The notes under the pieces: generated by a model | Seen by the model: the letters and a program-made list of their open reading frames with translations, nothing else | Told to the model about the DNA's origin: nothing | The model's database searches: none | Position numbers and translations under genes: made by a program | Source of the DNA: Candidatus Parabacteroides intestinigallinarum | GTDB taxonomy: Bacteria; Bacteroidota; Bacteroidia; Bacteroidales; Tannerellaceae | Length of the DNA stretch: 41,659 nt | Assembly: GCA_019114945.1 (NCBI GenBank) | Contig: DXEN01000008.1 | Location: 1 to 41,659 of the forward strand | Direction of reading: 5' to 3' | Shown: positions 94 to 31,925 of the stretch, piece by piece | How the letters are laid out: each line of letters opens with the position of its first letter | How positions within the stretch are numbered: the stretch's first letter is position 1

Positions 94-455
94 TCACAAA
101 ATTTACAACGTGGTTTACCGAATGCTTACCAGCATTCGCCCTATTAGGTATCACATGCTTCCTCGGGCAAAAAGCCTATTACAAGGCTTACCAGAATTGG
201 AGCCGAGCACGTATGTACTACAATAACAAGGCATACGAATCCACCCTGCCGGAACGAATCTATCCCTACTATCTACTCGCGCACCTCTACGCCGAACCCG
301 ATTTCTTCCACCCGGAGAAATTAAGAGAGGCCTCCGATTCCGTCCTCCGGAAGGTTCCCAAGATAGAAAGCCCAGCCATCCGGGAAATGCGGGAAAAGGT
401 CCGGAAGATATACCCAGATCACGCTCCAACATCATCTCATAACCTATTATTATGA
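93..455 (+). pseudogene. O-antigen ligase/polymerase (Wzy/WaaL-type) C-terminal remnant
   Basis: Read from 93, just after an in-frame stop, the frame gives a hydrophobic segment (AFALLGITCFLG), a WSRARMYYNNKAYE stretch, then PERIYPYYLLAHLY and ESPAIREMREKVRKI before the TGA at 453-455. In Bacteroidales O-antigen ligases with a C-terminal TPR domain, a last transmembrane helix leads into TPR repeats that end in a motif like PxRxYPxYLLAxLY...SxAIxEMRxxxxKI. Here the start of the TPR region appears joined directly to its end, so most of the TPR seems deleted, and the whole membrane domain is missing upstream. The first usable ATG is at 213. I read it as a decayed gene rather than a working 80-residue protein. 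It converges on the NRPS gene and overlaps its stop by a few bases. Family assignment is from motif memory only. Confidence 0.6.
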
Positions 456-3400
456 GAGCCTCGAGAATTGGTCGTAAATTTGTTCGACGGATTCAGGAGA
501 AAGGAGATGCCAATGATCCGTGTCTATCCAGTTCATTTTGATGTGGGGTTGGAGGTTTGACCAGGATGTCGCGTTCTCATCGTATTGACGACGATATTGA
601 GCGGCGATATCTGGATTCTCTAAACCTTTTATGCGGTCGAACGCGAAGCGATGAGGCAAGAAAATCCACGTGTCCCCATCGTATGGCTGTAGATGGCGGG
701 TACGGATCAGCTGGCGGGTTTCCTCGTTGCGCGTTTCAGCCGATGTAGAAAGTGTATCCGGATATTCCATAGACCAGGAATCGTCAGGGTTTCGCTTTGA
801 GAAGCTACCCAGCATCAATACTTTTGGCTGATGGTTGGTACTGTAGAATCGTTGGGCTAGTGAGAAAGCTAATTCACCTCCAAGGCAGAATCCCGCAATT
901 ACGTTCGGTGATTGTCCATTGAGTGTTTTAGTTGCTGTTGTGTAGAAGAAATCAATGAGTGATTCCCAGTCTAACGCATTTTTGATGCGGAAACATTCGT
1001 GGAAAGATTCTAAGACCAGTATTCGGTAATGTTGGCTGAAAACTTTGGTAAAATATTGGTATTCGGGGTTGTAGAATAAGTCGCCACATACGAGGAGTAA
1101 GATTTCCCGTTCGTCGGAAGAGCATTCGGAATCTTCAGACCAGAAGCAGAAGCTGGGGCGATGATCACGAACGATCGCACGGATCGTTTTCTCGCGATAG
1201 AAAGTGGCGACGGATAAATTCAATCCATGGTTAGCCGCTTCGGCAAGGATCGTCATTACTTGGATAGACGAGAGACCAAGGTCGAAAAGGTTTGTATCGG
1301 CGCTGACTTGGTTCATCCCAAGAGCTTCGGCCACAATGCGTGCGAGGATTTTCTCAGCTTCCGTTATGGGGGGGACGAAAGATTCTTCCGGCTGTTTTTC
1401 TTCCGGATTAGGAAGTGAGCGGGTATCTATTTTCCCGTTAACGGTCATTTGGAATGTTTCAACGAATGCCCAATATGTCGGTACCATATAATGTGGAACA
1501 TGTCGTGAGAGATACGTTCTTAATTCTTGGGTAGTGAGTGTGGATGTGGCGTTTGGTTGGATATAGGCTACAAGCGCTTTATCTCCCCTGATTTCTCGGA
1601 TGAGGACGACGGCGCGGACAATGGCGGGGTGTTGGTTCAGGATATTCTCGATCTCGCCGAGCTCTATCCGGAAGCCATGCAGCTTGATTTGCGAATCGAT
1701 GCGTCCGTGGAAAAGCATTCTTCCGGAGGGGAGGCGTGAGACGAGATCGCCTGTCCGATAAAGCGTAAGATTGCGGCCCAATTGGCGATCGCGTTCCGTG
1801 GCGAACGGATTCGGGACGAATTTCTTCGCGTTCAATTGGGGGCGATTAATATAACCGGAAGTCACTTGAGGCCCTCCGACTAGCAGTTCGCCGCGGACAA
1901 AATCGGGTGTTAAGTTTCCTTCTTTGTCGACGATATAGCATGTAGCCCCAATGAGCGGCCACCCAATGTCATTAGGGACGGTTTGCTCCGTAAGTTGACC
2001 CGCTGAGGCACAAACAGTCGTTTCCGTTGGGCCGTAGCCATTATAAAGCGCGCATTGAGAACGCCAAAACTCAATGTCTTTTTCGGGCGTGGATTCGCCA
2101 GCCACCCATAGCGATTCCAGTTCCTCAATCTTCCGATGAGGGAAGCGTGAGAGAACCGCGGGGGGAATCAGGGCAACAGAAACATGTTCATCTGTCAATA
2201 GTTTGCGCAAACGCTCGACATCGTGCCGTTCCTCCTCGGTCGCGATGATAAGTGTGGAGCCGTGTAAGAGCGTAAAGAATATCTCCCATACGGAAGCGTC
2301 AAAGCAAAGGCTCGCAAACTGGAGTACACGTTTTGACGCGTCGACCACGAAAACGCCAGAATGGACTAAAGTCAAGACTTGTTCATGCCGGATGGGAACT
2401 CCTTTAGGCTGCCCAGTTGTTCCGGAAGTGGAAATGATATACGCACGGGCAGAAGCGGGAATAGCCGGGCAATCCATTTCGGTCGAAGCCTCTAATTCCT
2501 CAGGGGTAAAGCATATTAAGTCCTTTGGTAAGCTTCTTTTCGCTTGCTCGTTCTCGCAAAGAACGCATTTCATGCCGTAGTCGTTCGCGAGGAACGCAAT
2601 GCGGTCTGTCGGGAAGCTTTGGTCGAGATACACGTAGGTTGCGCCTGCTCTTAGGATACTGAGAATCCAAATGATCGCTTGAAATTTGTTCGTTATGTAG
2701 ATACCGATAGGCTCATCCGCGGGAAGAGGATACCCGAGAATCTCGGCAAAATGTCCGCGTAGTCGACGGGCGTTCCGCTCACTTTGGACGAGGAGATCAG
2801 CATAAGAGACGGATTTTCCCGCATAGATTAAAGCTATATGATTGGGTTGACTTAACGCTATTTTGCGAAACCTTTCCGGAATGGATTCCTCTATATGTGG
2901 CAAAAGATCCAACTGTTTTTCATACTTATTCATCAATTGTGCTTGTTCTTCCGCAGAGAATAAGGATATGGATGATAAAGATTGATCGCAATCGGCGGAA
3001 AAAGTTTCTAACGCTATTCGTAAGGATCTTACTAGAACTTGGATTTGCGCTTTGGAGAACATGGAATGGTAGCGTATGCGCGAAAAGCCAATTTGTGTCG
3101 GTTCTATTTCCAGTAGAAGATCAAGATTGGAAAAATGGTCTAGACGCCGGAAGGGTTGGCTTTTGATCGTGGTGAATGGGATGGCATGCCGCCATTCCGC
3201 GAAATTAATGCCGATGTTTGTCCGGAGTGATAAGTCCGTTTTTGTCTCATGATTCAGGAAATATGCGATCTCAGACCATGTATATCGACGTATTGTTTTC
3301 AAAGCCTCCCATTGTTCTATTAGAGTGGTAAATAGATCGCATACCCGTATAGACTCTTTGATACCAACGGATAGTAAAAGACTATTCGCAAAGAAACCGA

Positions 3401-4235
3401 TTAAATTTCTTGCTTCTTTGGGACGTTGATTGATAGGCGTTTCTAAAATGATTTGTTCTTGCCTCATGAAGCGCTTCAGCACGAATCCCCAAGCGGCCAT
3501 CATGATCAAGAAAACCGTGGCCCCATTTTTTCGGGCGGCAGGATTTATTTTCTTGGCGACCTCGTTAAGTCGCTCCATTAAGTCACTTCCTAATTCAAAT
3601 TCCTCCGCTTGAAACGCAAAAGAAGATGGTGTGGGCGTTTCCAAGGGGAAAGTCTCGAAAGCATTCTTATCTAATAAGTTTATCCAATGATCGAAGTCTG
3701 TTTTATTGAACTTGTTTTTTTCGTGAGGAAGCGCATCGTTCCATGCGGGAATCTCTAATTGGGAATATTCGCCGTTTTTATTTAGCAGATCATAGACATT
3801 GGCTAACATCGTGAAAAAGTCTACGACTGTGATGCCATCAATGCAGATATGATGGAATATGATCGCAAACATATAAGAGTGGTCTGGCAAACGGTATAGG
3901 CGAGCACGGATCGGCCATTCCTTGGACAAGTCAAAAGGCTGGTTGTTGAATTGTTCCATATCTTTTTGGCATTCATCCAAAGAGCATTCGATCATATCAA
4001 AAATTTCTTTCCCGTTATTCTCAGTTTCAAAATAGAGTCCCGATTGTTCATTTCCTTTCAGAACGCTGTGTAAGAGGTCTACGGAATGAACAACGTGTGT
4101 AAAAGATTTTTGTAACAAATCAGTCCGCAAGTTTCCTGACAAAAGAAAACTCCATCCTAAATTATAGAAATTAGCTGGATATATATGTGCATATCGCCAT
4201 AAATCCTCTTGATAATGATTCAAATGCAACTTCAT
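450..4235 (-). CDS. Single-module NRPS, C-A-T-TE, with cysteine thioesterase
   Basis: This 1261-residue cytoplasmic synthetase carries a condensation domain (about 1-430; HHICIDG at 128-134 fits HHxxxDG), an adenylation domain (about 440-940; STSGTTGQPKG, NGYGPTETT, YRTGDL, HGFRIELGEIE, NGKID), a carrier domain (DLGLSSIQ, phosphopantetheine site Ser990) and an alpha/beta-hydrolase thioesterase (about 1035-1261). By-eye alignment to the GrsA code gives D-A-W-L-W-A-G-V-C-K: a normal alpha-amino acid, perhaps hydrophobic or aromatic, substrate unknown. The thioesterase nucleophile motif is GFCLGG, so Cys1117 replaces the usual Ser, and the residue aligned with the usual triad Asp is Gly; His1241 or His1243 remains. 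The N-terminal C domain implies that the loaded residue is acylated or joined to a partner made elsewhere. It lies 6 nt after the TonB-receptor gene as the last gene of the six-gene operon. No phosphopantetheinyl transferase gene is in the window. Confidence 0.93.
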   Translation of the reverse strand: MKLHLNHYQEDLWRYAHIYPANFYNLGWSFLLSGNLRTDLLQKSFTHVVHSVDLLHSVLKGNEQSGLYFETENNGKEIFDMIECSLDECQKDMEQFNNQPFDLSKEWPIRARLYRLPDHSYMFAIIFHHICIDGITVVDFFTMLANVYDLLNKNGEYSQLEIPAWNDALPHEKNKFNKTDFDHWINLLDKNAFETFPLETPTPSSFAFQAEEFELGSDLMERLNEVAKKINPAARKNGATVFLIMMAAWGFVLKRFMRQEQIILETPINQRPKEARNLIGFFANSLLLSVGIKESIRVCDLFTTLIEQWEALKTIRRYTWSEIAYFLNHETKTDLSLRTNIGINFAEWRHAIPFTTIKSQPFRRLDHFSNLDLLLEIEPTQIGFSRIRYHSMFSKAQIQVLVRSLRIALETFSADCDQSLSSISLFSAEEQAQLMNKYEKQLDLLPHIEESIPERFRKIALSQPNHIALIYAGKSVSYADLLVQSERNARRLRGHFAEILGYPLPADEPIGIYITNKFQAIIWILSILRAGATYVYLDQSFPTDRIAFLANDYGMKCVLCENEQAKRSLPKDLICFTPEELEASTEMDCPAIPASARAYIISTSGTTGQPKGVPIRHEQVLTLVHSGVFVVDASKRVLQFASLCFDASVWEIFFTLLHGSTLIIATEEERHDVERLRKLLTDEHVSVALIPPAVLSRFPHRKIEELESLWVAGESTPEKDIEFWRSQCALYNGYGPTETTVCASAGQLTEQTVPNDIGWPLIGATCYIVDKEGNLTPDFVRGELLVGGPQVTSGYINRPQLNAKKFVPNPFATERDRQLGRNLTLYRTGDLVSRLPSGRMLFHGRIDSQIKLHGFRIELGEIENILNQHPAIVRAVVLIREIRGDKALVAYIQPNATSTLTTQELRTYLSRHVPHYMVPTYWAFVETFQMTVNGKIDTRSLPNPEEKQPEESFVPPITEAEKILARIVAEALGMNQVSADTNLFDLGLSSIQVMTILAEAANHGLNLSVATFYREKTIRAIVRDHRPSFCFWSEDSECSSDEREILLLVCGDLFYNPEYQYFTKVFSQHYRILVLESFHECFRIKNALDWESLIDFFYTTATKTLNGQSPNVIAGFCLGGELAFSLAQRFYSTNHQPKVLMLGSFSKRNPDDSWSMEYPDTLSTSAETRNEETRQLIRTRHLQPYDGDTWIFLPHRFAFDRIKGLENPDIAAQYRRQYDENATSWSNLQPHIKMNWIDTDHWHLLSPESVEQIYDQFSRLS

Positions 4236-4241
4236 GCTTTC

Positions 4242-6620
4242 TTATCGTCTTAATATGTATCTTAAAGTTCCCAACATGCTAAATCCTTGTTGAATGTAAG
4301 GAACGAACGTACTTCCTCCTTGGTAATAAGTCTTATCGAATAGATTATAGAATGTCAATTCTAGCTCAATGTTTTTAAATCGATAACGTGCGCCCGCATT
4401 GGCTATAAAGATAGCGGGCAATTGATTCTCAAGATCAACGACTGTTTCTCCTCCGATCATGACATGATCTATCGGGGATAATTGCGGACCAGTTAGTGAC
4501 GCATTTGCGTATAGCCAGAGTTCGTGTTCGGATTTCTTTACGACATTACCGTTTAGCACCAAATTCATGAACCAATTTGGGATATTGTGTATACGATGTC
4601 CTGAAAAGCTATAATTTGTTCCTCCTAATACGTTTTGATAAGTCAAATTGAAATTCGCCATAAAGCGAGGGACATGATATTGTATCGTATTTTCTAAGCC
4701 TATAGTCCGTAACTCGCCACCATTGATGTAACGAGGATCATTTCCTGTCGCGGTTGGGTCGCGATAAATTAATCCCGTCAGGTTATTGTAGAAGAATACG
4801 CTATTGTAGCTTAATGCGGGAATTGGATGATAGGAAATACTCGCTTGAAAAGCCTCCATGTATTCAGATTCCATATCCTCAAGTCCTTTATAAGAAGGAA
4901 GTCCATTATAGCGATAGAAGTAAGGTGCGTCTACAAATGATCGGCCGTAATTGGCTTTTATATTAATTTTGTCATTTAATAAATAGATTAGAGAGATACG
5001 AGGTGAAATAGATGTGACGACATTTTTATTTGCTCGCCTTTTAATGTCATAGCGAGCTCCTGCGTTCAGAATCAATCTTTTATTAAAATAGTGCTTCAAT
5101 TGGATAAATGGAGAATAGGTCGATTCGGCTCCTGTCTGGACAGGGGTAGGAAAAGAGGAGATGATATTTGTATATTCCGAACCAATAAATCCTTCTTTTC
5201 CATATAGGCGTATGTATTCCAATTGCATTCCAACTAGTAAATTACCTTTTCCTAATATGCCTAATTGCGGGTAAGTGTAATTTGCTAAAGCGGTCCCACC
5301 TAAAGAATATTCAGACCACCTCATGATTTGGAAGGGGGAATAAATTGTCGCTGTATCTCCTGCGGCTACTCCACTGACACCATCGCCTATTAATGAATAG
5401 AGACTACTCTTATTTAAATCAAAATAGCCATTAATGTCAATTGACCAATTTCCGAATTGATTTAGATAGGAAATGCCCGCATGTGTAAAGGACATGCCAT
5501 GCCCTGGACCTTCTCCATTTGTAACCAAATATTTATCATAATCATATAAGGCTCCCATGGATGAATAGACATCTGCGTGGGTTGGAATTTTTTTGCCATA
5601 TCGTTGATTGAAATTTAATGTGATTTTCCGCCACTTGAATGTGAACCCAAAATCATAAGATGGTAATCGATTGTATCCTTCTGTCCATGCGTATCCATCA
5701 TGAGGATTTGTGCCAATCGCGTCCTGAGCTGAAACGAATCTCTTTTGTCCATCTGAGGCATAAATGGAAGCCCATCCCATAAAGTCCATGTCCATGAAGC
5801 GTTTCCCGACCAATAGGCTACCTTTTTTTTGCCCGAAATTGCCAAACCCGACAGAGGCTTCCACGCCATTTACATCCGAACCTTCTTTCGTGATCAAGTT
5901 GACGACCGCCATTAAAGCGACGTTGCCATAAAGCGACGAAGCCGGTCCCCTTAGTACCTCTATTTGCTTTACTTTATCCAAGCTAATGCTATAATCAGGT
6001 GCCGCTTTATTGGTCGCACGAGCATTCATGCGTTGGCCATTCAACATGATTAATATTTTTTCCTGCCCGGCCGAATAAACGCCATGCGTCGCCACGTTTA
6101 CCTCGTTGGGGCTTTCAACGGAGGTTATTCCGGGGACGTAGGCGATTAGGACATCTTTCAATGTTCGTGCCCCGATCGCCTCGATCATCTCTTCCGTAAT
6201 CAAGGTGACAGGAACCGGGGCTTCCTCCACGGTCTCGGCTTGTTGAGAGGCGGTCACAAGAGTAGTCTTTCCTTCTTTACGGTTCCGGATCAACTCGGCG
6301 AACCGCTCCGGGTCGTTGAACGAGATACTATAATAAGGATCCTCTTTCAACAATAAATCCACGCACTGGTTGGCGTTCTCCATGTCATCTTGCGCTAAGT
6401 AGCATAGCGCCAGAAGGCGATAGGCGCTGACCTTCAGCGTACCGCTATATGTGGCGACTTCCCGGTTGAGCATATCGATCGCATTGTCAAGATGCCCTAT
6501 CTGATATTCCGACTCCGCCAAGGCAAAGCGTTGCCGATGATCCATCTCGGCTTGTTGAGCGAACAAAGAGCCGGAGATAAGGATGTTTATCGTCGCCCAT
6601 ATATAGATTAGCCTCCTCAT
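4242..6620 (-). CDS. TonB-dependent outer membrane receptor with N-terminal TPR segment
   Basis: The 792-residue product has a signal peptide (residues 1-21, ending SLFAQ), then a helical TPR-like stretch at about 28-115, a plug domain at about 130-245 (PVTLITEEMIEAIG, VLRGPASSLYGNVALMAV) and a 22-strand-type beta-barrel ending in RYILRR. A TPR segment in the place of an STN or CarboxypepD_reg domain is unusual. The barrel does not end in the usual aromatic residue. The start overlaps the stop of the histidine kinase gene by 4 nt (ATGA), and the NRPS follows after 6 nt, so it probably imports, re-imports or senses a ligand tied to the NRPS product; that role is inferred. Base composition changes inside the gene: the plug end is about 55% G+C in a sampled line, the barrel end as low as 25%. 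Confidence 0.9.
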   Translation of the reverse strand: MRRLIYIWATINILISGSLFAQQAEMDHRQRFALAESEYQIGHLDNAIDMLNREVATYSGTLKVSAYRLLALCYLAQDDMENANQCVDLLLKEDPYYSISFNDPERFAELIRNRKEGKTTLVTASQQAETVEEAPVPVTLITEEMIEAIGARTLKDVLIAYVPGITSVESPNEVNVATHGVYSAGQEKILIMLNGQRMNARATNKAAPDYSISLDKVKQIEVLRGPASSLYGNVALMAVVNLITKEGSDVNGVEASVGFGNFGQKKGSLLVGKRFMDMDFMGWASIYASDGQKRFVSAQDAIGTNPHDGYAWTEGYNRLPSYDFGFTFKWRKITLNFNQRYGKKIPTHADVYSSMGALYDYDKYLVTNGEGPGHGMSFTHAGISYLNQFGNWSIDINGYFDLNKSSLYSLIGDGVSGVAAGDTATIYSPFQIMRWSEYSLGGTALANYTYPQLGILGKGNLLVGMQLEYIRLYGKEGFIGSEYTNIISSFPTPVQTGAESTYSPFIQLKHYFNKRLILNAGARYDIKRRANKNVVTSISPRISLIYLLNDKINIKANYGRSFVDAPYFYRYNGLPSYKGLEDMESEYMEAFQASISYHPIPALSYNSVFFYNNLTGLIYRDPTATGNDPRYINGGELRTIGLENTIQYHVPRFMANFNLTYQNVLGGTNYSFSGHRIHNIPNWFMNLVLNGNVVKKSEHELWLYANASLTGPQLSPIDHVMIGGETVVDLENQLPAIFIANAGARYRFKNIELELTFYNLFDKTYYQGGSTFVPYIQQGFSMLGTLRYILRR

Positions 6621-7471
6621 AGATTCATCGGTATGGATATCGTAAAACGGGTATATTTGTTTTCCTCAGACTCGAATTTGATTTGCCCATGGTGTTTCAC
6701 CTCGATAATATCGCGGGTAATGGAAAGCCCTAAACCGGTCCCCTCGCCTACCGGCTTTGTCGTGAAGAAGGCATCGAACAATTTCCGCTTCACTTGGTCG
6801 GACATCCCGATACCATTATCTTCTATACATATATATAATGTCTGCTCCTGTTGATACGCCTTGACACATACGGTCGGGATATACGCGCTCCCGGTCGCCG
6901 TATCGTGCTGCTTTTTCCAGACGGCGTAGCAAGCGTTGTTCATTAGGTTGATAATCGCCCGGCTGATATCTTGCGGGATTACCTTCACCTCGGGCAAGGT
7001 CGGGTCGTAATCCTCCTGGATGCTCACATTGAAGTCCGCTAAATTCGCACGCATCGCATGGAAGGAAAGCCAAACATATTCCTTGAGTAGCTTAGGAATG
7101 GAAGTAGGCATAAACTCGTCCGACCGTCCGCGCGAATACAGCAAGATACCTTGGATGATATCGGTCGCCCGATGTCCATGCTCGGCGATCTTCGCCAAGT
7201 AAGAGCGCAACGTAGCGATTGTCTCTTTCAATTCATCATTGGCCTCATCTTCCAAGTCGATGCCTTTCTCGTCGAGGATATCCGTCAGGTCGTCTACCAT
7301 ATCGTTGGACATCTGGCTGAAATTGATAACAAAATTCAACGGATTTTGTATCTCATGCGCGATCCCCGCGCTCAATATGCCCAATGAGGATAGTTTCTCC
7401 GACTTCTGGATCTGCGCCCGCAAATCCTGGACCTGCTGCTCTAATGCTTTTATATCATTCATCGTCGTCAT
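6617..7471 (-). CDS. Soluble sensor histidine kinase without a recognisable sensor domain
   Basis: Numbered from an upstream ATG at 7522, the protein has a short coiled coil (about 22-46), an H-box GIAHEIQNPLNF with phospho-acceptor His56, N-box NLMNNACYAV (about 192-201), G1 box EDNGIGM and G2 box GEGTGLGLS. All catalytic boxes of a HisKA/HATPase_c kinase are therefore present. There is no transmembrane segment or known input domain, so it likely receives its signal from a partner protein in the cytoplasm. I prefer the start at 7471 (MTTMND) or 7462, because 7522 lies deep inside the preceding gene and adds a cysteine-containing tail without family support; 7471 leaves a 17-nt overlap. Its H-box region closely resembles that of the preceding propeller protein, so the two kinase cores may be paralogues. 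The likely phosphate recipient in the operon is the REC domain of the PP2C protein. Confidence 0.88.
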   Translation of the reverse strand: MTTMNDIKALEQQVQDLRAQIQKSEKLSSLGILSAGIAHEIQNPLNFVINFSQMSNDMVDDLTDILDEKGIDLEDEANDELKETIATLRSYLAKIAEHGHRATDIIQGILLYSRGRSDEFMPTSIPKLLKEYVWLSFHAMRANLADFNVSIQEDYDPTLPEVKVIPQDISRAIINLMNNACYAVWKKQHDTATGSAYIPTVCVKAYQQEQTLYICIEDNGIGMSDQVKRKLFDAFFTTKPVGEGTGLGLSITRDIIEVKHHGQIKFESEENKYTRFTISIPMNL

Positions 7472-10463
7472 GTTTTGAGGATTGATGTATAGGAATGGAC
7501 AAAATAAATTCCGTATATTCATCTTTTTGAGACTTCACTTCCACGGAACCATTATGATTCAAGATAATTTCCCGGCTCAGGTATAAGCCGACACCCGCGG
7601 CCTCGGCGGTTGTCTTCGTCGTAAAGAAGGGATCGAAGATCTTATCCATGATATTGGACTCGATACCGATACCATTATCCCATAAATGAATATTCGTTTT
7701 GTCGCCTTCTTTTTCCAAATGGATACGCATTTCCGCCTCATACGCCATCTTCGCTTTTTTCTTGCAGAGCGCATGTACACTGTTCTGCATCATGCTCATC
7801 AACGCTTTCCCCAATTGCAAGGCATCGACTTGCGCGACGAGCTTCTCGCCAAACGGCTCGAATATTACACGGATATCGTTCGCTTGAATCTCTTTCTGGT
7901 AATATTGTTTCAATACATCCAGGTTGTTGAGGATTAATTTGTTGAGGTCCGTCTCCGCAAAATGGCAACTATGATCGGACAACATCTCTTCCATGGCTTT
8001 CAATATACGCGAGGTACTGTTGCCATGTTCCTCGATTTTCGTCAGGTGCGTATTCAACATCTCCAGGATTTCATGCATATCCTCGTAATTATCGGTGGAT
8101 ATGCTTTCCTGCTCATCCTCGATATCCTCTCGCATATCTTTCAACAAGACGTTCGATAGATGCGAGAAGTTAATGATATAATTCAACGGATTCAAGATAC
8201 GATCGATCAGTCCTTGGGTCAACTTACCAACGGTCGCGACTTTTTCCTGACGAATCAATTGCTCTTGCGCCTCGCTCAACTCCTGGAGCGTCACCTCCAG
8301 CTTTTGGGATTTCTCGGCGATCTCATCCCGTTGCTCCCGAATCTGCCGGGTACGCTCTTCCACGATGCCTTCCAAGCGCATCTTCTCCGCCAACAGCTTC
8401 CGGGTACGCCACTTGAAGAACAACAGGATCAATAGGACAAGGCCCGCTAAGTAAACCAATAGGCTATACCATTTGAGGTAAAAGGGTTTCCAGATCGTGA
8501 ACGTAAAAGTATCCTCCTCGCTCTCGCGGCCAAAAACATCCATTGCCTTTACATGGAACGTATAAGTGCCATAGGAGAGGTTGGTATATTCCCTTTTCGA
8601 GGAACTTTGCCATGGGCTCCACGACGTCTCGTAGCCTTCCAAGTAATAAGCGTATTGAGTCGCCTGGATAACGTCGCTCGCGTCCGAGGAGAAGGAAAAA
8701 GAAAAGTTCCGGAACGCGCTCTGAAAATAGGGCGCCGGCAATGTCGTGATTCGTCGCAGGTCGTTATTATATCCCTCATAATAGATGGAATCGTTGCCCG
8801 TTTGGATGGACCGGATATGGATAGCGGGCCTTTGGGCGTAGGCGGCATCCGGATTGTTCGGGTCGAACTTAATCAATCCAAAATCGCCACCAATCCAAGC
8901 GACTCCGTTGTCCTCCAGGAATAACGTACGGACAGTATATGCCTTTATCGGAGCAAGCATCTGGTTGCATCGGGTGTCTATTTGCCCTTCCGACAAGGCC
9001 ATCAGGTTCTTCCCGTCACCTCCCGTGATCCATTCTTGCTTGCCGGAAGGCGTGGCGGCATAAAGGCCCGGCCACCAAAGGTTGGCACTCAGCAAAGAAT
9101 CCAACGGAGAGGAAATCCGCTCGAACCGATTTGTAGCCGCGTTCCAACGTTGAAAGCCGTATCGCGATAAGACCCGGATGGTGTTATCGATCACGTATAA
9201 CTTATTTCCGCCAATCGCCTGGATGCCTCGCGTAGAATCTTGCAACACCGGCTCCGAAAGATCGGTACCCCATTGATACAACTCGCCATATAACGTCTCG
9301 GCCCAAAGCCTATCGGCCGCGAAGGCTAATTGGACCGCTTTTTCCACGTCCGCGATTTTTTCCTTTCGGCTCCCCGTTATGCGATAAACACCATCGATCT
9401 CTCCCGTATATAAAACATGAGAATCTTTTGGATCGAACGTCAAGCTAAACGTATTATAATCATTAATCGCCTTCGCCCGGTTCCCGTTGATTTGGAACAA
9501 GCCATTGCTGGTTACGGCGTATAAGTCGCCTTGAGGGCTCTCTTTCAATTGCCAGCAAGATTGCGTGATCGCGGGAAGTTGCACGAAGCGGTCGCTTTCC
9601 GGAGCATACAAGAAAAGTCCGTGAAGCGTCCCGGCATAAAGCCGGTCGCGATAGCGGTATAACGCGGTCACCTCGCCATTCAAACCCTCTGTTGTCCCGA
9701 ATCGTGTATAAAAAGAGGGGACATTTATCCGGAATACACCGTTATCCGTAGCCGCCCATACCGAGCCTTTGCCATCGTACGCTAACTCGTTAATGGTATT
9801 GCTACAGATTCCGTTCGCCTCCGTTATCGCGTACAACGGTTCTCCCCGCGCGTCCCGGACAAGGAGCCCGGACGTCCCTTGCGCCGAGACGGTCCGCCCG
9901 TCCAGCAATTCTACGCGTCGCTCGCCGGTATCTTCTATAACATCCTTGGTCATCGATTCTATGGAAACAATCGAATCACGCAGGAGCGTGACTTGATAAT
10001 TCTGCGTATCGAACAAGAGCGTCTCACCTCGTTCCTCGATTCTCGTCACTTCCCCAATTTGAACACCTTTCAGGTATGTCTCCTGATCGGAGATGTAAGA
10101 ACGCAATTGAGGGGCGCCTTTGGGCGAGGCGACGATTTCTCCGATATAATTATGTCCGCCCGCCCAGATTCGATTCCGCCGGTCGATGTGCAGGCGAGTA
10201 ATCCGCGAGATGCCCGGGGTAAGTATTTTGTGCCATTCCGCTCCGTTATAGTAAATAATACCCTCGAAGTTGGCGAAATAAACGACTCCGGAGGAATCGC
10301 AAACCACGTCGAAGTTCCGGTTGTGCGCTTGGTATTCCTGAGCCGTATAATTCCGGAAGAAAGGCATACCCTCTTGCGAGAAAGCCGGGAAAAGTATCCC
10401 CAACACGCATACGATCCCGATCGCGCATTTCCTTTTCCATCTATTTTTATCTGTAGGTCTCAT
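7455..10463 (-). CDS. Two-component regulator propeller protein with degenerate histidine kinase core
   Basis: The 1002-residue product has a signal peptide or N-terminal anchor (about 13-30), a periplasmic two-blade Reg_prop/beta-propeller region (about 35-585), a Y_Y_Y domain (about 590-655), one transmembrane helix (666-683), a coiled coil (about 685-745) and a kinase core. This matches the sensor half of Bacteroidetes hybrid two-component sensors, which usually detect glycans, but there is no receiver or AraC domain at the C-terminus. In the H-box, the usual His-Glu pair is Asp754-Arg755 (GLIDRILNPLNY against GIAHEIQNPLNF in the next gene). The ATP-binding boxes look intact (QNSVHAL, WDNGIGI, FDPFFTTK, GVGLYLS). 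It may therefore bind ATP without autophosphorylating and act through the adjacent kinase. It overlaps the WD40 gene by 17 nt. Confidence 0.9.
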   Translation of the reverse strand: MRPTDKNRWKRKCAIGIVCVLGILFPAFSQEGMPFFRNYTAQEYQAHNRNFDVVCDSSGVVYFANFEGIIYYNGAEWHKILTPGISRITRLHIDRRNRIWAGGHNYIGEIVASPKGAPQLRSYISDQETYLKGVQIGEVTRIEERGETLLFDTQNYQVTLLRDSIVSIESMTKDVIEDTGERRVELLDGRTVSAQGTSGLLVRDARGEPLYAITEANGICSNTINELAYDGKGSVWAATDNGVFRINVPSFYTRFGTTEGLNGEVTALYRYRDRLYAGTLHGLFLYAPESDRFVQLPAITQSCWQLKESPQGDLYAVTSNGLFQINGNRAKAINDYNTFSLTFDPKDSHVLYTGEIDGVYRITGSRKEKIADVEKAVQLAFAADRLWAETLYGELYQWGTDLSEPVLQDSTRGIQAIGGNKLYVIDNTIRVLSRYGFQRWNAATNRFERISSPLDSLLSANLWWPGLYAATPSGKQEWITGGDGKNLMALSEGQIDTRCNQMLAPIKAYTVRTLFLEDNGVAWIGGDFGLIKFDPNNPDAAYAQRPAIHIRSIQTGNDSIYYEGYNNDLRRITTLPAPYFQSAFRNFSFSFSSDASDVIQATQYAYYLEGYETSWSPWQSSSKREYTNLSYGTYTFHVKAMDVFGRESEEDTFTFTIWKPFYLKWYSLLVYLAGLVLLILLFFKWRTRKLLAEKMRLEGIVEERTRQIREQRDEIAEKSQKLEVTLQELSEAQEQLIRQEKVATVGKLTQGLIDRILNPLNYIINFSHLSNVLLKDMREDIEDEQESISTDNYEDMHEILEMLNTHLTKIEEHGNSTSRILKAMEEMLSDHSCHFAETDLNKLILNNLDVLKQYYQKEIQANDIRVIFEPFGEKLVAQVDALQLGKALMSMMQNSVHALCKKKAKMAYEAEMRIHLEKEGDKTNIHLWDNGIGIESNIMDKIFDPFFTTKTTAEAAGVGLYLSREIILNHNGSVEVKSQKDEYTEFILSIPIHQSSKHDDDE

Positions 10464-12015
10464 ACGCGCTTACTTCTCCAATATAATAATCCCATTCTTC
10501 CCGCGTGAAATTCCGGGTCAGACGACTTCGTATTTCCGATGCCATATAATCCGGCGAGATAGAGACGGAACTGAGGTTCCCTTTCTCGTCGCCCGTAAAG
10601 ATTCGCTCGCCATCCGGATTGATAATAAACGTATGTATCCACTCGGACGGACGATAAACGATAGACGAGGCGGCCTTGTTCTCGTTGTTGATATTCCAGA
10701 GGCGGACCGTCCCGTCGTAACTGCTCGTGAATAATCTCCCGCCTAAGAAACGTATCGCCGTAATGGGTGATATATGCCCGCTGAGTTCCGAGGAAACACC
10801 GTCGCGCACGTCATCGAGAACGACCAGCCCGCTTTTATATCCAATCATGAGGATACCGCTATGGGCATCGGAATAAACGCAGGTAACAGGCTGCTTGACG
10901 CGATCCGCCAACACCGTGGCTTGCCCTCGCTCGTCGATCCGGTAGACACTCCCTTGGTCGTCTCCTACGATGAGTCCCTTGTCGCTTATCTCGCAAGCCG
11001 TTATCGTATGCGGATGGTGATAGACCAGGGTGAAATTCCATTTATTTACCTGGGCTTTCCAAATATCGCCTTTTTTAGAGGCCACGAACAGATCGCCACG
11101 GATAACGCCCATGCCCACGCAAGCGTCGCCCGGAAGCGGAATCTCGGACAAATTCCCTTCACCATCGATGCTGATGACTTGCCCCGTAAATGAGAGGACG
11201 AAAAGCCGCCCCGACGTTTTGTCGAGCTCTATTTTCCGGAAATCATACTTAGGGTCGTCTATCCACACGCGCTCCCGGATCAGGTCGTTCCCGGATGTTT
11301 TCCAAAGGAATAACTCGCCGTACTGGCTCGCTGATAGCAACAAGGCCTCCTGCCTCCGGTAATAGGGCATGATATCGCGGATCGCTCCTTTGTGCAATCC
11401 CCAGCGTTGCGATAAATCGCTGGTTTGGGATAAGGCGTCGAAGATAGCGGGCTGGTAAACATCGCCTTTGTTCTCGGACGTGAATTTCCAAGCCGAATAG
11501 CTGAGCAAGGAAGCCAAATCCTCGTTCCCGAGCGCGTATTGCGTCGAGGCTTGCGCCCCCAGCGAGCGTCCCAGCGCCAAGCGAGCCAATGTATCCGCCT
11601 TCATACGCGCCTCTACCGCCTCCTCCCGACGCAACTCGGCGATTCGTTTCTGCTCCTCCATTTGGTTATAGGATTCTACCGCCGCCTGTTGGGCGAGGAG
11701 CGCCCTTTCCCGCTCCAACTCGGCGTGCTCGCGCATTTGATCGGCGATCTGCTTTTGGTTTACCGCCTCTTGCCGTTGTATATCCGATATCTCTTTTTGC
11801 TGATAAGCGATTTCCTCCAGTTGCGTGCTGACCCGCCGGGTGATGGTCGCTTCTTTCTGCGCTTCCGTGGCTTGTCGCAATTGCTCGGTCAACGCCTCAC
11901 GCTCCCGGCGATTCACCTGGTTTTCCCACCAAAGCGTAGCCATACCCGCACCTCCTCCTACGATGAGCAGCAGGAACGCGGCCAGACTAATAGATCGCTT
12001 GGGGAAAAGGGGCAT
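10447..12015 (-). CDS. Membrane-anchored coiled-coil WD40-repeat protein
   Basis: The 522-residue product starts with a basic tip and a transmembrane helix (about 9-30), followed by a long charged coiled coil (about 31-140, rich in Glu, Arg and Gln). A helical linker (LARLALGRSLGAQA..., about 141-180) comes next, then a beta-propeller with WD40-like blades (SGHISPITAIRFLGGRLFTSSYDGTVRLWNI is the clearest region). The layout, transmembrane helix, coiled coil, a linker like SLAAQA...LALLLA, then WD40, is what is seen in the C-terminal halves of large nSTAND-WD40 signalling proteins, here without the NTPase. The propeller probably faces the cytoplasm and serves as a scaffold for neighbouring signalling proteins; this is inferred. 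The start lies 1 nt after the stop of the PP2C gene. Confidence 0.85.
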   Translation of the reverse strand: MPLFPKRSISLAAFLLLIVGGGAGMATLWWENQVNRREREALTEQLRQATEAQKEATITRRVSTQLEEIAYQQKEISDIQRQEAVNQKQIADQMREHAELERERALLAQQAAVESYNQMEEQKRIAELRREEAVEARMKADTLARLALGRSLGAQASTQYALGNEDLASLLSYSAWKFTSENKGDVYQPAIFDALSQTSDLSQRWGLHKGAIRDIMPYYRRQEALLLSASQYGELFLWKTSGNDLIRERVWIDDPKYDFRKIELDKTSGRLFVLSFTGQVISIDGEGNLSEIPLPGDACVGMGVIRGDLFVASKKGDIWKAQVNKWNFTLVYHHPHTITACEISDKGLIVGDDQGSVYRIDERGQATVLADRVKQPVTCVYSDAHSGILMIGYKSGLVVLDDVRDGVSSELSGHISPITAIRFLGGRLFTSSYDGTVRLWNINNENKAASSIVYRPSEWIHTFIINPDGERIFTGDEKGNLSSVSISPDYMASEIRSRLTRNFTREEWDYYIGEVSAYETYR

Positions 12016-12016
12016 A

Positions 12017-13186
12017 TCAATTCTTCTTTCGTTTGATTACCAACATCGTTATATCATCGGATTGGGTCGTGTCGCCAATGAACTCGCCCAAATCGTTATG
12101 CACCTCTTCGATGATTGTTTTCGCGTCCTCGTAATAAAGTTCCGCCAAGGAGTCCTCCAAACGTTCCTCGCCGAAAGGCTCGTCTTTCTCATTAAAGGCC
12201 TCCGTCACGCCATCGGTGTATAACACGATCGCCTCACCCGGATTCAGGTGAGTCGTGTTGTTCTTATAAACGAATCCCTCGATGCCTCCGGCCACGAAGT
12301 TCGGGAATTGCTTCACTTTCTCCACCGTACCATCCTCGTGCAGGATATAAGCGGGGTTGTGTCCCGCGTTGGTGAAGTCGATATCGCCTGTCTTATGATT
12401 CAGGATTCCGTAGAACATCGTGACAAACATTGAATTGACACTCGCTTTGCATAACAGGCGGTTCACCTCGTCCATGCACTCGTTGGTCGTTTCCGTGGCC
12501 ATAGCCACCGAGCGGAGCAACGTATTACTTACCGCCATGAAGAGAGCCGCAGGAATACCTTTACCCGATACATCGGCGATAACGAAGCCAATCTTATCCT
12601 CGTTAATCCGGAAGAAATCATAGAAGTCTCCTCCGATTTCCTTTGCCGGGGTCATGGAGGCGTAGATATCCAACACGGAAGCCAATTCCTTGAAAGGCGG
12701 GAACTTGCACGGCAATATCGCTTTCTGGATCTCGCCCGCCGTAGCCAGGTCCGATTGCAACGATTGCAATTGGAAATGCTCTTGCTGGGTCTTCTTCACG
12801 AACTCGATTTGCTCGATCGCCTTCTCGATAGTCACGGAAAGGTCGTCCATGTCGATTGGTTTCGTCGCGAAGTCGAACGCGCCCCGGTTCATCGCCGTAC
12901 GGATATTTTTCATATCGCCGTACGCGGACACCATGATGCACTTCTGGGCGGGGTTGCGCAACTCGTTGATTTTCGATAACAAGGTCAGTCCGTCCATCTC
13001 CGGCATATTAATATCGCTCAGGATAATATCGAAGTTCGGTTGCTCTACCATCAATTTAAGAGCTTCCAAGCCATTATGCGCGAACGTGAACTCGTATTCC
13101 CCTTTCCTGATTTTCCGCCGGAAGTAATGCGTTAATAAGACCTCCAAGTCTTGCTCGTCATCAACACTTAATATTCGTATAGCCAT
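12017..13186 (-). CDS. Response regulator with SpoIIE/RsbU-type PP2C phosphatase output
   Basis: The 389-residue protein has an N-terminal receiver domain (1-125; acidic Asp9 and Asp10, phospho-acceptor Asp58 in LSDINMPEMDG, Ser87, Lys109). A coiled-coil linker (about 125-155) leads to a SpoIIE-family PP2C domain (about 165-387; metal ligands in GGDFYDFF, Asp187, and ADVSGKG, Asp205; AGHNPAY; QSDDITMLVI). This family normally dephosphorylates a serine-phosphorylated STAS-domain antagonist in partner switching. No STAS or RsbW-like kinase gene is in the window, so its substrate is elsewhere or is atypical. It is the first gene of the six-gene operon, 54 nt after the small membrane protein gene, with a possible promoter in that gap. 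Phosphorylation by the operon's histidine kinase would link sensing to serine/threonine signalling. Confidence 0.93.
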   Translation of the reverse strand: MAIRILSVDDEQDLEVLLTHYFRRKIRKGEYEFTFAHNGLEALKLMVEQPNFDIILSDINMPEMDGLTLLSKINELRNPAQKCIMVSAYGDMKNIRTAMNRGAFDFATKPIDMDDLSVTIEKAIEQIEFVKKTQQEHFQLQSLQSDLATAGEIQKAILPCKFPPFKELASVLDIYASMTPAKEIGGDFYDFFRINEDKIGFVIADVSGKGIPAALFMAVSNTLLRSVAMATETTNECMDEVNRLLCKASVNSMFVTMFYGILNHKTGDIDFTNAGHNPAYILHEDGTVEKVKQFPNFVAGGIEGFVYKNNTTHLNPGEAIVLYTDGVTEAFNEKDEPFGEERLEDSLAELYYEDAKTIIEEVHNDLGEFIGDTTQSDDITMLVIKRKKN

Positions 13187-13240: not shown

Positions 13241-13465
13241 TCAAATACCATTTTCGCTTTTTCCCCTTTTCTTCCGTAGCATTCGGATAAAACGCTCCGC
13301 GATTACATACAGGCCTGTACCGATAAGCGCACCCACCGAATGAACCAACAAATTTCCGCCCTCAGGGTCGTTCGCGAGGTTCAACCGCGAGATTCCACCC
13401 ATAATCAGGAAGAACAAGACGAATACAAGGAAATAACGCCCTCCTTTTTTATACGTTTGTTTCAT
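13241..13465 (-). CDS. Small two-helix membrane protein
   Basis: This 74-residue protein has two hydrophobic segments (about 11-28, YFLVFVLFFLIMGGI, and 39-58, LLVHSVGALIGTGLYVI) with basic ends on both sides. I do not recognise the family. It follows pdxB by 3 nt, so it is almost certainly co-transcribed with it, and it precedes the REC-PP2C gene by 54 nt. The ATG at 13463-13465, the tight spacing and the clear membrane topology favour a real gene over a chance frame. The function is unknown. Confidence 0.7.
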   Translation of the reverse strand: MKQTYKKGGRYFLVFVLFFLIMGGISRLNLANDPEGGNLLVHSVGALIGTGLYVIAERFIRMLRKKRGKSENGI

Positions 13466-16038: not shown

Positions 16039-18168
16039 ATGAGAAAGTTTTTTACGTTAAGTATTTTAGGCGCGGCTTGCCTCGCTTGGACAATGAACGC
16101 GGCTCCCCGCTCGGCGGAGGACGCGTTGCGAGTCGCCATATCGTTTTATCAGGAGCAAAGCTTGCTGCGCTCCGTCTCCGACGCGGATTTCCACTTGGTG
16201 TATACCGGCGAGAGCGATGGTTTGCGCTCCACATCCGAGCCGTATTATTATATCTATAATATAGGCGAGGACGGAGGTTTCGTGATGGTATCGGGCGACG
16301 ACCGGGTAGATGCGGTCATCGGTTATGGCCTATCCGGAGCGTTCGACCCTAACAAGATTCCGGCGAACATGGCGGGCTGGTTCAAGGAGTACGAGCGCCA
16401 GATCGACTACGCCCGCACGCTCCCGGAGCGGGTCTTCCCGGAGGCGAGCACCAAGGCCGCCGCGAGCGATTCCCTGCCGGACCGCGTCGAGCCTCTGATC
16501 ACGACCCAATGGGATCAATTAACCCCCTATAACCTGCTTTGCCCGATGGTGGGCTACCAGCGGACGCCGACCGGTTGCGGCGCTACGGCGATGGCGCAGA
16601 TTTTGAATTATCACAAATGGCCGGAACGAGCGACTGGAACAGGCTCTTACACCGTCCCAGAGTTGGGCGGCGACACGACTTACGTGGACCTGAGCCAATT
16701 CACCTTCGACTGGGCGAACATGGCAGACGTGTATGACGAGAACGCCACCACCGAACAGCGCGAAGCGGTGGCGGAATTGATGTTCGCCGCGGGTGCCGCT
16801 ATTAACATGGTGTATAGCACCACTTGGAGCTACTCTCAGTATAATCAGATATCGGAAGGATTTGTCACGCACATGGGTTACGATGAGAATCTGGCCTACT
16901 TGATGCGCAACTGCTATGACTCCGACTCTTGGGAGTCCACCATCAAGAAGGAATTGGCGGAGAAACGCCCGGTCTTCTACATGGCGCAATCCATTAGAGA
17001 CGGTCATTATTTCGTGTGCGACGGATATGTGAGCTCTCCGAGCCAAGGCGACTACTTCCACATCAATTGGGGATGGGGTGGCATGCGAAACAATTATTTC
17101 CGGTTGGATTTGCTGAACGAGTATGACGTGGAGGGTAACATGACCGGTTACTCGTGGGACCAGGTGGCTCTCGTGGGCATCCAGAAGCCGACCGACAGTT
17201 CTGAGCGAATCGAGAAGGTCGCGATGGTTCGGTTTGAGCCGGAAGAGGATTACATCGCACAAGGCAACACCTTGCACCTCAGCTACGATTATCAATACAG
17301 CGGTTCCATACCAACGCGCAGACTCCAGCATGGTTTTGCCATTTATACGGACAATGGCCAAGAGGTGGGAAGTTTGGAAAATGAACTAGAGATAATTCCT
17401 CAATACAATTATTGGTACAGAGAGCGTTGGAGGATAACCGACTTAAGGCTTGACCCCGGCACCTATAAAGTGCGCATGCTGTATCGTTTCGAGGGCGATG
17501 AGGAATGGAAGGAGATAACTCCGATGAAAGATGCCTTGCTGTTCGACTTTACGCTGACGGCCACGGAAGATAGGATTTTCTGGGACTCCACAAACCGTAT
17601 CCTGACGGGCGACCCCGTCCAGATGGAGCGTTCCGACTTACCGGCCTATACTTGGTTCGCCACGAGCACGCTACGCAACAGTGCGCCCGATGAGACACAG
17701 GCCTCACTCTTGATGCACATATTCTCGAGCACGATAGACGCCATGTTCTACGCGGCAGGCGTATATCTCGACGCAGGGGCGGCGGAGACGGTGGAAATCC
17801 CGCTCACCATCCAGCTGGAGCCGGGCGAGTACACGGCAGAGTTGGTCGCCTCGAATCTTGCGGACACCTATACATATCCCATAGAGGGCACCCGCACGAC
17901 CTTCACCGTTTCGGAGGAGCCGACCGCCAACGAGAGCATCTCCGGCCCGACGGGCGGCGTGAGCGTCCGCGTGGAGGGCGACCGGCTGAGGGTGGAATCC
18001 GCGGCTGAGGTGCGCGAGGTGCGGCTGTTCGACATCACGGGGCGGCAAGTGGCCGTCGGGCAAGGCCCGGAGGTCTCCCTGACAGGTGTCGCGGCGGGTG
18101 TTTACATCGTCCGTGCCGTGACGGACGAGGAGACGCTCACCCGCAAGGTGCTCATCGGGCAGCGGTAG
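16039..18168 (+). CDS. Streptopain-like C10 cysteine protease with sorting domain (copy 1)
   Basis: The 709-residue secreted protease has a signal peptide (1-21), a Spi-like inhibitory prodomain (about 22-140), a C10 papain-fold catalytic domain (about 150-375), beta-sandwich regions (about 385-620), and a C-terminal sorting domain (about 640-709, RLFDITGRQ...AAGVYIVR...RKVLIG) of the type IX secretion type. The catalytic residues are visible: oxyanion Gln in TTQWDQ (Gln157), Cys180 in PTGCGATAMAQ, His323 in GHYFVCDGY, and the conserved INWGWGG at 342-348. Family members such as SpeB and B. fragilis fragipain mature by cleavage of the prodomain; here the junction is around 140-150. It has its own promoter and is followed 84 nt later by a paralogue with its own promoter. 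It is likely exported to the cell surface or medium to cut host or bacterial proteins. Confidence 0.92.
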   Translation: MRKFFTLSILGAACLAWTMNAAPRSAEDALRVAISFYQEQSLLRSVSDADFHLVYTGESDGLRSTSEPYYYIYNIGEDGGFVMVSGDDRVDAVIGYGLSGAFDPNKIPANMAGWFKEYERQIDYARTLPERVFPEASTKAAASDSLPDRVEPLITTQWDQLTPYNLLCPMVGYQRTPTGCGATAMAQILNYHKWPERATGTGSYTVPELGGDTTYVDLSQFTFDWANMADVYDENATTEQREAVAELMFAAGAAINMVYSTTWSYSQYNQISEGFVTHMGYDENLAYLMRNCYDSDSWESTIKKELAEKRPVFYMAQSIRDGHYFVCDGYVSSPSQGDYFHINWGWGGMRNNYFRLDLLNEYDVEGNMTGYSWDQVALVGIQKPTDSSERIEKVAMVRFEPEEDYIAQGNTLHLSYDYQYSGSIPTRRLQHGFAIYTDNGQEVGSLENELEIIPQYNYWYRERWRITDLRLDPGTYKVRMLYRFEGDEEWKEITPMKDALLFDFTLTATEDRIFWDSTNRILTGDPVQMERSDLPAYTWFATSTLRNSAPDETQASLLMHIFSSTIDAMFYAAGVYLDAGAAETVEIPLTIQLEPGEYTAELVASNLADTYTYPIEGTRTTFTVSEEPTANESISGPTGGVSVRVEGDRLRVESAAEVREVRLFDITGRQVAVGQGPEVSLTGVAAGVYIVRAVTDEETLTRKVLIGQR

Positions 18169-18201
18169 CGGCGCGGGGGCGTTCATTTTCGGAGACAATC
18201 A

Positions 18202-18233
18202 TTTGGCGTAATGAATCATAAATCCTAATTTTG
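18202..18233 (+). promoter_or_regulatory. Promoter of the second C10 protease
   Basis: TTTG at 18202-18205 and TAATTTTG at 18226-18233 with a 20-nt spacer match the Bacteroidetes consensus on both elements. The transcription start is predicted near 18240, 13-19 nt before the start codon. The paralogues can therefore be transcribed separately. Confidence 0.7.
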
Positions 18234-18252
18234 TCTCACTTACAAGAAAGAA

Positions 18253-29938: not shown

Positions 29939-29979
29939 GTATAAAATAGAATTTGTTTGATTGATTTGGAAAACGCGGC

Positions 29980-29987
29980 AAATTTAC
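29980..29987 (-). promoter_or_regulatory. -7 box of the first GH92 gene
   Basis: Minus-strand TAAATTTG matches TAnnTTTG. The predicted start near 29973 gives a leader of about 35 nt. No clear -33 element. Confidence 0.5.
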
Positions 29988-30021
29988 CTTTTTTATTGGG
30001 GGTAGCCTATGTTTTCCCGGT

Positions 30022-30279
30022 TTATTTTTTCCTTTTATGCCGCATCATTCTTGCCCGGACGCCCCAAAGGAGGGAAAAAAGTACGCCTATCCAAAAGAAA
30101 CTGATCAAGAAAAGGTCGAATGAGGTAATTTGCTCCAGTGGAAGCGAGGAGATGTTTTCTCCGCTTATGAATCTCGCGCCGACGAGTCCGATCAGCACGA
30201 TCGCGCCGACGGGAATGATTCCTAAGAGCAGTTTGCGTTTGATATACGCGATATTTCCGGAGTCCCGTTTTGTTTTCAT
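30022..30279 (-). CDS. Small two-helix membrane protein
   Basis: The 85-residue protein has two hydrophobic segments (about 17-36, KLLLGIIPVGAIVLIGLVGA, and 52-71, FDLFLISFFWIGVLFSLLWG) and very basic ends (KRK before the first, RARMMRHKRKK after the second), so both ends are predicted in the cytoplasm. No family recognised. It lies between the first GH92 and a long palindrome and has no close operon partner. A real small membrane protein is likely because of the clear topology. Confidence 0.65.
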   Translation of the reverse strand: MKTKRDSGNIAYIKRKLLLGIIPVGAIVLIGLVGARFISGENISSLPLEQITSFDLFLISFFWIGVLFSLLWGVRARMMRHKRKK

Positions 30280-30388
30280 AGCGCGAAAATCCTCTTTTTC
30301 AAGGACGGGGAAAATCCCTATGAATAGGTAAAAGTCTGGGGCGGGTCATCATTTATAGGTAGATACGTATTTGTCAAATCGCAGAAAA

Positions 30389-30492
30389 GGCATGCGGACA
30401 ACGCAGAAGGCGCGGATTCGCACAGACTCTTTTTATTATTAATCAAATAAAAAAGAATCCGCGCGAATCCGCGTCCTCAGCGTCCGCGTGCC
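30389..30492. repeat. Long imperfect palindrome (REP/MITE-like)
   Basis: Arms of roughly 47-49 nt at 30389-30437 and 30446-30492 pair with few mismatches; both contain CGCGGATTCGC and GCGGAC blocks, with an A+T-rich centre. It follows the isomerase stop by 39 nt and may act as its terminator. Similar CGCGGATT-rich palindromes occur widely in Bacteroidetes intergenic DNA as far as I recall. The rest of 30280-30531 shows no gene. Confidence 0.65.
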
Positions 30493-30531
30493 AATACCTA
30501 ATTTTGACACACTTCCTTGCGATTCGTATTT

Positions 30532-31920: not shown

Positions 31921-31925
31921 TATGC

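Follow-up and report, generated by a model that had tools for sequence, protein, structure and literature searches.

The window analysed here, 41,659 nucleotides of Candidatus Parabacteroides intestinigallinarum (contig DXEN01000008.1 of assembly GCA_019114945.1), carries an operon of six minus-strand open reading frames (ORFs) at 450-13186. They encode, in this order, a response-regulator phosphatase (REC-PP2C), a WD40 propeller protein, a propeller sensor with a pseudo-histidine-kinase, a soluble histidine kinase (HK), a TonB-dependent receptor, and a one-module nonribosomal peptide synthetase (NRPS). By its sequence, the operon is a mosaic, a finding that goes beyond the first-pass annotation of this DNA: the synthetase and the portion of the receptor that binds the ligand seem to have passed between species as one block, with the signalling relay staying put.

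The block, which comprises the receptor plug and barrel and the whole NRPS gene, is 98.4% identical over 5833 bp to the corresponding region of another species of the same genus (genome G009; the window genome is G000 and its contig C61). The remaining alignable pieces of the operon are 68-80% identical to G009. Similarly, in the comparison of the last 20 kb of the window with this genome, in which 40 of 75 candidates were scored, 23 matches were found, all with 65-76% identity except one 36-base match at 89%. One joint lies between the TPR-like N-terminus of the receptor and its plug, at residue ~123, within a strongly conserved linker, and the other lies 29 nt beyond the NRPS stop codon. At the amino-acid level, the identity inside the block is 99.0% for the plug-barrel and 98.4% for the NRPS, and outside it 35% for the receptor N-terminus, 46% for the WD40 protein, 52% for the propeller protein, 74% for HK, and 76% for REC-PP2C. 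In support of that, the tree of the signalling genes rejects a clade of G000 and G009 (p-AU 0.0085), and the barrel tree rejects a clade of G000 and G001 (p-AU 1.7e-9); both trees carry warnings for the long rows of G078 and G177 and for joins of long branches. The nonsynonymous divergence between the two copies (dN) is well below the synonymous one (dS) in both halves of the block (0.0068 vs. 0.046 in the NRPS, 0.0045 vs. 0.060 in the barrel), which corresponds to 38 synonymous vs. 20 nonsynonymous changes in the NRPS and 26 vs. 7 in the barrel, with synonymous sites being ~3.5 times fewer. The N-terminus of the G009 receptor was also considered as derived from another receptor class, and this was rejected: a search with the fragment gave matches in 12 genomes, the 11 best of which have this receptor, indicating a strongly diverged N-terminus within this receptor type.

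A second, weaker case was found in the group of G075, the signalling genes of which are as close to those of the window as the signalling genes of G008. The identity of the G075 group to the window is 41% in the barrel and 48% in the receptor N-terminal part, as compared to 63% and 64%, respectively, for G008. The G+C content at third codon positions (GC3) was compared in the core genomes other than G081 and G083. In G000, G001, G003, G008, G019, and G077, both the barrel and the NRPS have a lower GC3 than the TPR-like part. In G009 it is lower in the barrel and not in the NRPS, in G075 only in the NRPS, and in the NRPS-less genomes there is little or no fall (from 0.65 to 0.66 in G078 and from 0.52 to 0.48 in G177). 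This pattern fits a foreign origin of the cassette and gives no direction of the transfer; it hints at a low-GC3 source for the cassette of the window, with GC3 falling at the barrel and NRPS in G001 and other genomes too. The cassette had no plasmid match at the 'near' setting, and a scan of viral contigs for its pattern was empty, which says little, as the pattern was narrow.

The six genes were recovered at the positions (Table 1) and with the junctions given in the first-pass annotation: starting from REC-PP2C, a 1-nt gap, a 17-nt overlap, the junction at the HK start, a 4-nt overlap, and a 6-nt gap. Only the HK start is ambiguous, as the overlap with the propeller gene is 68 nt from the first ATG and 17 nt from Met18, which is close to the alignment start of the HKs of relatives. 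Domains were called with Pfam profiles, with a threshold of E <= 0.001 in the receptor scan. They confirmed the earlier domain calls with two reservations: the thioesterase scored below the Pfam cut-off (20.5 vs. 26.4 bits), and the TPR match of the receptor was weak (TPR_16, best E 1.2e-4, 22.9 bits vs. a gathering score of 32.7).

Table 1. Genes and segments of the operon in the window, and nitroreductase-family genes at related loci.
Feature	Position	Strand	Matches and remarks
REC-PP2C, response-regulator phosphatase of the SpoIIE type (389 aa), at the start of the operon	12017..13186	-	Response_reg 1.5e-22, SpoIIE 2.9e-49
WD40 propeller protein, 522 aa, N-terminal hydrophobic segment, coiled-coil-like stretch (by eye)	10447..12015	-	WD40-type matches
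Two-component-propeller sensor with pseudo-histidine-kinase, 1002 aa	7455..10463	-	Reg_prop, Y_Y_Y, HATPase_c
Soluble HK with phospho-accepting His	6617..7471 from preferred Met18; 6617..7522 as called	-	HisKA 9.3e-9, HATPase_c 1e-20
TonB-dependent receptor, whole gene	4242..6620	-	Plug and TonB barrel
Receptor N-terminal part, signal peptide (by eye) and TPR-like domain	6254..6620	-	Outside the exchanged block
Receptor plug and beta-barrel	4242..6253	-	Plug 7.7e-16, barrel 1.8e-27; inside the exchanged block
One-module NRPS, C-A-T-TE, 1261 aa	450..4235	-	Condensation, AMP-binding, PP-binding
Exchanged cassette, receptor plug-barrel and NRPS	421..6253	.	98.4% identity with G009 over 5833 bp
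Nitroreductase-family gene	L083:15123-15668
Nitroreductase-family gene	L085:12655-13233
Nitroreductase-family gene	L158:4489-5031

The first-pass annotation had also tied the signalling genes, the receptor, and the NRPS to each other, and this link proved to be real and recurrent. We compared 123 genomes of the family, one per species, many of which are perhaps metagenome bins, using the receptor (E <= 1e-40, up to 8 candidates scored per genome), the WD40 protein (E <= 1e-8), and the NRPS (E <= 1e-60) as queries. The receptor has matches in 11/123 genomes, all of one genus, and the WD40 protein in the identical 11, including those in which the two genes are on different contigs (G075, G081, G083). 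The NRPS has matches in 14/123 genomes, namely in ten of these 11 and in G014, G022, G080, and G096, where neither the receptor nor the WD40 query gave a match at its threshold. Since the same set recurs in other genomes, it is more than a chance assembly of genes, and an accidental attachment of the NRPS was rejected, as ten genomes have an NRPS next to this receptor or at least in company with it, at identities to the window NRPS down to ~27% over whole alignments. The order WD40-propeller-HK-receptor-NRPS is kept in seven genomes (G000, G001, G003, G008, G009, G019, G077). REC-PP2C adjoins it in five of the seven, in G003 across a contig break with its tail beside the WD40 gene, and lies ~6 kb upstream in G019 and G077. 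The REC-PP2C and WD40 genes of G075, G081, and G083 adjoin pdxB, and the receptor is on a separate contig. In G075 and G081 its neighbour there is a two-module NRPS, whereas in G083 the receptor and NRPS are split over two short contigs. Thus, the receptor is directly upstream of the NRPS in nine genomes, the seven with the full order and G075 and G081.

The remaining genome, G078, has pdxB-REC-PP2C-WD40-propeller-HK-receptor followed by a convergent formyltransferase gene, with no NRPS at the locus and no genome-wide NRPS match at E <= 1e-60. Among 393 genomes sampled from the order, with two candidates scored per genome, we found 10 receptor relatives besides that of the window, four of which match only from the plug or from within the barrel onward. 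Only one of these ten neighbourhoods, that of G177 from another family, shows kinase genes, in the order RsbW-like, DJ-1/PfpI, REC-PP2C, WD40, propeller, HK, receptor, nitroreductase; in G487 the contig ends in the receptor, and in G157 the receptor is uncalled. No NRPS is present at the G177 locus, to which the search in this genome was confined. As G078 and G177 have the core without an NRPS at the locus, the NRPS is dispensable, and an obligatory NRPS was rejected. The stable core consists of the signalling genes and the receptor, to which an NRPS is usually added. The first-pass annotation had reasoned that finding the signalling and receptor genes in many genomes next to unrelated genes would, together with a promoter of the NRPS gene's own, make the NRPS link accidental. 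Such a core does occur without the NRPS in G078 and G177, and the kinase trio occurs without the receptor or NRPS in paralogous operons, but all 11 genomes of the family with the WD40 protein also have the receptor. A nitroreductase-family gene (Table 1) is found behind the NRPS in both G008 and G019; in G177, with no NRPS at the locus, it comes after the receptor. In G077, a gene that matches the G019 nitroreductase gene in size stands behind the NRPS.

The REC-PP2C gene is present in 12/12 core genomes. As judged by our own patterns, metal-site motifs among them, and with the G003 copy cut by the contig end included, the Asp motif of REC and the GDFYD motif are present in 12/12 relatives, the window protein being one of these. 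DxSxKG and YTDG were each found in 11/12, and DDxT in 8/12. The WD40 protein has a single hydrophobic segment (residues 9-27) and is inferred to be periplasmic. In the propeller protein, Asp-Arg is present where His-Glu would be expected, and no HisKA match is listed. The Asp substitution is present in 10/10 aligned relatives, and two glycine-rich ATP motifs are largely kept, so the earlier label of a pseudo-kinase was correct. The soluble HK retains the phospho-accepting His in 10/10 aligned sequences. Smaller, propeller-less membrane paralogues have the same Asp-Arg substitution in 10 of the 12 examined, and in the other two the pattern was unmatched.

No STAS or RsbW-like gene is inside the operon of the window. 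The window genome carries an adjacent pair of STAS and RsbW-like genes on contig C90, and four paralogous loci (L048, L050, L056, L060) have an operon STAS-RsbW-pseudoHK-HK-REC-PP2C, in which the STAS protein was verified with Pfam at all four loci and the RsbW-like protein at L048 only. Because the paralogous kinase-trio operons and the window genome have STAS and RsbW-like genes, the output of REC-PP2C, a PP2C/SpoIIE phosphatase with a regulatory domain, is likely to be partner switching, as the first-pass annotation had proposed. In this respect, the operon resembles the RsbU/RsbV/RsbW, SpoIIE-type, and Pseudomonas RssB systems, and RssB is the best NCBIfam match of REC-PP2C, far below the cut-off (113 vs. 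700 bits). It differs from them in that its REC-PP2C is linked to an outer-membrane receptor and a pseudo-kinase/kinase pair. The Reg_prop propeller, Y_Y_Y domain, transmembrane segment, and kinase-like C-terminus of the sensor are as in the hybrid two-component systems of Bacteroides, but the propeller protein lacks the phospho-accepting His, and Pfam found no fused receiver or DNA-binding domain in it.

The window genome has its own NRPS-free paralogue of the trio (contig C66, L012:3537-8351), in which pseudoHK-HK-REC-PP2C follows proteins of 1000 aa and 600 aa; of their G001 counterparts, the first is TPR-rich, and the second has no Pfam match and is outer-membrane-barrel-like by eye. In G077 (L128:1669-8649), the stretch that separates REC-PP2C from WD40 holds an epimerase-like gene (named after its G019 counterpart), two genes for STAS proteins, and one gene each of the isoamylase-like and DJ-1/PfpI kinds. 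Together with the RsbW-like and DJ-1/PfpI genes immediately before REC-PP2C in G177 (L158), these neighbours raise the possibility that glycogen or stress genes are tied to the switch.

Of the known designs, two come closest to the operon: the lock-and-key evolution of pyoverdine synthetases and receptors (see below) and TonB-dependent cell-surface signalling of the FecA/FoxA/FpvA type, for which an extra N-terminal domain is described as needed for signal transfer in the excerpted text of PMC11637429. The operon of the window is alike in having a receptor with a plug, a barrel, and an N-terminal extension before the plug, and in having a biosynthesis gene, the product of which could be the inducer. 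It differs in having the propeller pseudo-kinase, kinase, and REC-PP2C. A search of the whole receptor (E <= 0.001) and of six fragments from its N-terminus (E up to 1, within HMMER's filters) gave no STN domain, and we found no gene of a FecR-type anti-sigma factor or of an extracytoplasmic function (ECF) sigma factor among the six genes and the two larger genes next upstream. By its predicted domains and neighbours, the system is thus outside the TonB-dependent transducers with regard to STN, FecR, and ECF.

The NRPS is a termination module of condensation, adenylation, thiolation, and thioesterase domains (C-A-T-TE), with the HHxxxDG motif, the Ser of the thiolation domain, and Cys as the thioesterase nucleophile. 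The predicted model of the thioesterase is confident (mean pLDDT 89.5), and its sequence resembles those of thioesterases with solved structures only weakly (best E 0.018). Cys replaces the nucleophilic Ser in 10/10 aligned thioesterases, and the residue after beta-6 is Asp in six of the ten, Gly in the window and G009, and Glu in G019 and G077. Cys is a less common thioesterase nucleophile, known, according to the excerpts of PMC11298585, from the terminal thioesterases ObiF1 and SulM of the small products obafluorin and sulfazecin; the thioesterase of the window resembles these two at least in this residue. The residues of the adenylation pocket, at positions in PheA numbering, vary among alleles, and therefore the NRPS products probably differ between them. 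A phosphopantetheinyl transferase is encoded in the window genome. No second NRPS was found there; two weaker matches, with 27-28% identity, were tentatively read as acyl-CoA-ligase-like.

The reading that best combines these features, to which we give slightly less than an even chance, is a lock-and-key circuit across the envelope: the receptor would signal the presence of the NRPS product to the kinase, the phosphatase, and the partner switch. The NRPS would make a small acyl- or aminoacyl-amino-acid product, which would leave the cell and be bound outside by the TonB-dependent receptor. The TPR-like domain of the receptor would report its occupancy in the periplasm, through putative contacts with the WD40 protein and with the propeller of the sensor. 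The cytoplasmic pseudo-kinase of the propeller protein would then control the soluble HK, which would phosphorylate REC-PP2C. The latter would dephosphorylate a STAS protein, and this would switch an RsbW-like anti-sigma kinase and presumably the genes under its regulation. The specificity of such a circuit would be set by the receptor plug-barrel and the NRPS, movable as a single cassette, and the TPR-like domain and kinase genes would be its fixed signalling half. The plug and barrel, which would meet the ligand, and the NRPS, which would make it, are both in the exchanged unit, and the parts that would contact the kinase are outside it. This is as predicted by a model with a self-made ligand and its own receptor, and it suggests that the bacterium senses its own product.

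Several observations weigh against the circuit. The core without an NRPS in G078 and G177 indicates that the ligand could come from elsewhere or be something else, and the co-occurrence of the genes may reflect shared descent. The tree of the TPR-like part (137 columns) places G009 beside G000 (90/83, not starred; G009 branch 2.17), and so it does not help the claim that the N-terminal part has a different history. Moreover, a gradual co-diversification of the NRPS and barrel was rejected, as rank correlation over 28 pairs among 8 genomes did not single out the barrel: the Spearman coefficient of NRPS identity was 0.74 with the barrel, 0.74-0.81 with the kinase-side genes, and 0.41 with the TPR-like part. 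Consequently, the case for a coupling of the NRPS and barrel comes down to a single clear exchange and a single replaced pair.

It is possible, though we consider it unlikely, that the system serves metallophore acquisition, with the product being a metal chelator that the receptor re-imports, the kinase genes adjusting uptake, and the exchange being equivalent to siderotype switching of pyoverdine producers. The receptor weakly resembles hemin, siderophore, and B12 receptors, with every match below the cut-off, and G078, which has the receptor only, would be a 'cheater'. In the lock-and-key system of Pseudomonas pyoverdines, according to the excerpted texts of PMC11366639 and PMC11734721, NRPS and cognate receptors diversify together, receptor-only strains exist, and one case is reported with an apparent move of the receptor as well. 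The window is alike in that its synthetase appears to have travelled with receptor sequence. In contrast to that system, the window has a single-module NRPS, no chelator genes in the operon, and a joint inside the receptor, before the plug. By the listed matches, the six genes, to which this search was confined, include no chelator-pathway gene, the marker of such clusters in the excerpts of PMC12971057. Two of the transport families TonB receptor, FecCD, and periplasmic binding protein would be expected in such a cluster, and the operon has the TonB receptor only.

Less probable still is that the NRPS is a passenger, the product of which acts elsewhere, e.g., as an antimicrobial or lipid-like compound, with the receptor reading an unrelated signal and the promoter being merely shared. 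The core without an NRPS in G078 and G177 would fit this, as would the GC3 of the NRPS, which is below that of the signalling genes in 7/8 NRPS-bearing genomes examined (the exception being G009), a sign of separate origin. However, the plug-barrel and NRPS are in one block shared by G000 and G009, and in G075 and G081 the receptor and NRPS remain paired even though the kinase genes are elsewhere. That G009 is a chimeric assembly and no exchange occurred is very improbable: this genome is apparently a metagenome bin, and the receptor joint adjoins the conserved linker, but a chimera would need two joints, one in frame and one just beyond a stop codon, the copies differ by 1.6%, with changes 7 to 13 times as frequent at synonymous sites, and both flanks of the block differ from the window (on the NRPS side within a limit of 420 window bases).

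A scan for the exact -7 motif (TAnnTTTG) revealed it ~34-49 nt before the REC-PP2C start in 3/5 upstream regions scanned (G001, G078, G075), and not in those of the window and G008; it was not found up to 250 nt upstream of the five downstream genes of the window either. A 74-aa ORF with a hydrophobic stretch (13241-13465, minus strand) lies between pdxB and the REC-PP2C gene, and may encode a small membrane protein sharing the operon transcript. Elsewhere in the window, a tandem pair of genes for 709-aa proteins with Peptidase_C10 and Spi-inhibitor domains is located at 16039-20382 (plus strand). A SusC-like/SusD pair with two GH92 genes is located at 27602-41025 (minus strand); this is a probable glycan utilisation locus, perhaps for mannosides.

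We found no publication on this combination of genes, some papers being judged by their title and the start of the abstract, which is no proof of its absence from print. If the lock-and-key circuit is true, it would be a case of outer-membrane-receptor signalling through a kinase and a phosphatase, not through an anti-sigma/ECF pair, and with a nonribosomal ligand in a gut commensal. The exchange would provide a concrete case for the question whether the receptor and synthetase transfer together, which is called unresolved for pyoverdines in the excerpted text of PMC11366639. The joint would mark a natural border between the signalling and ligand-binding parts of the receptor, where receptor chimeras could be tested. 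In a more far-reaching and rather doubtful version, gut Bacteroidales would possess a pheromone-like system with a nonribosomal signal, in which a fixed signalling half (TPR-like domain of the receptor, periplasmic WD40 protein, pseudo-kinase sensor, kinase, and REC-PP2C partner switch) is joined by swapping to different blocks of NRPS and plug-barrel, and strain 'types' change accordingly.

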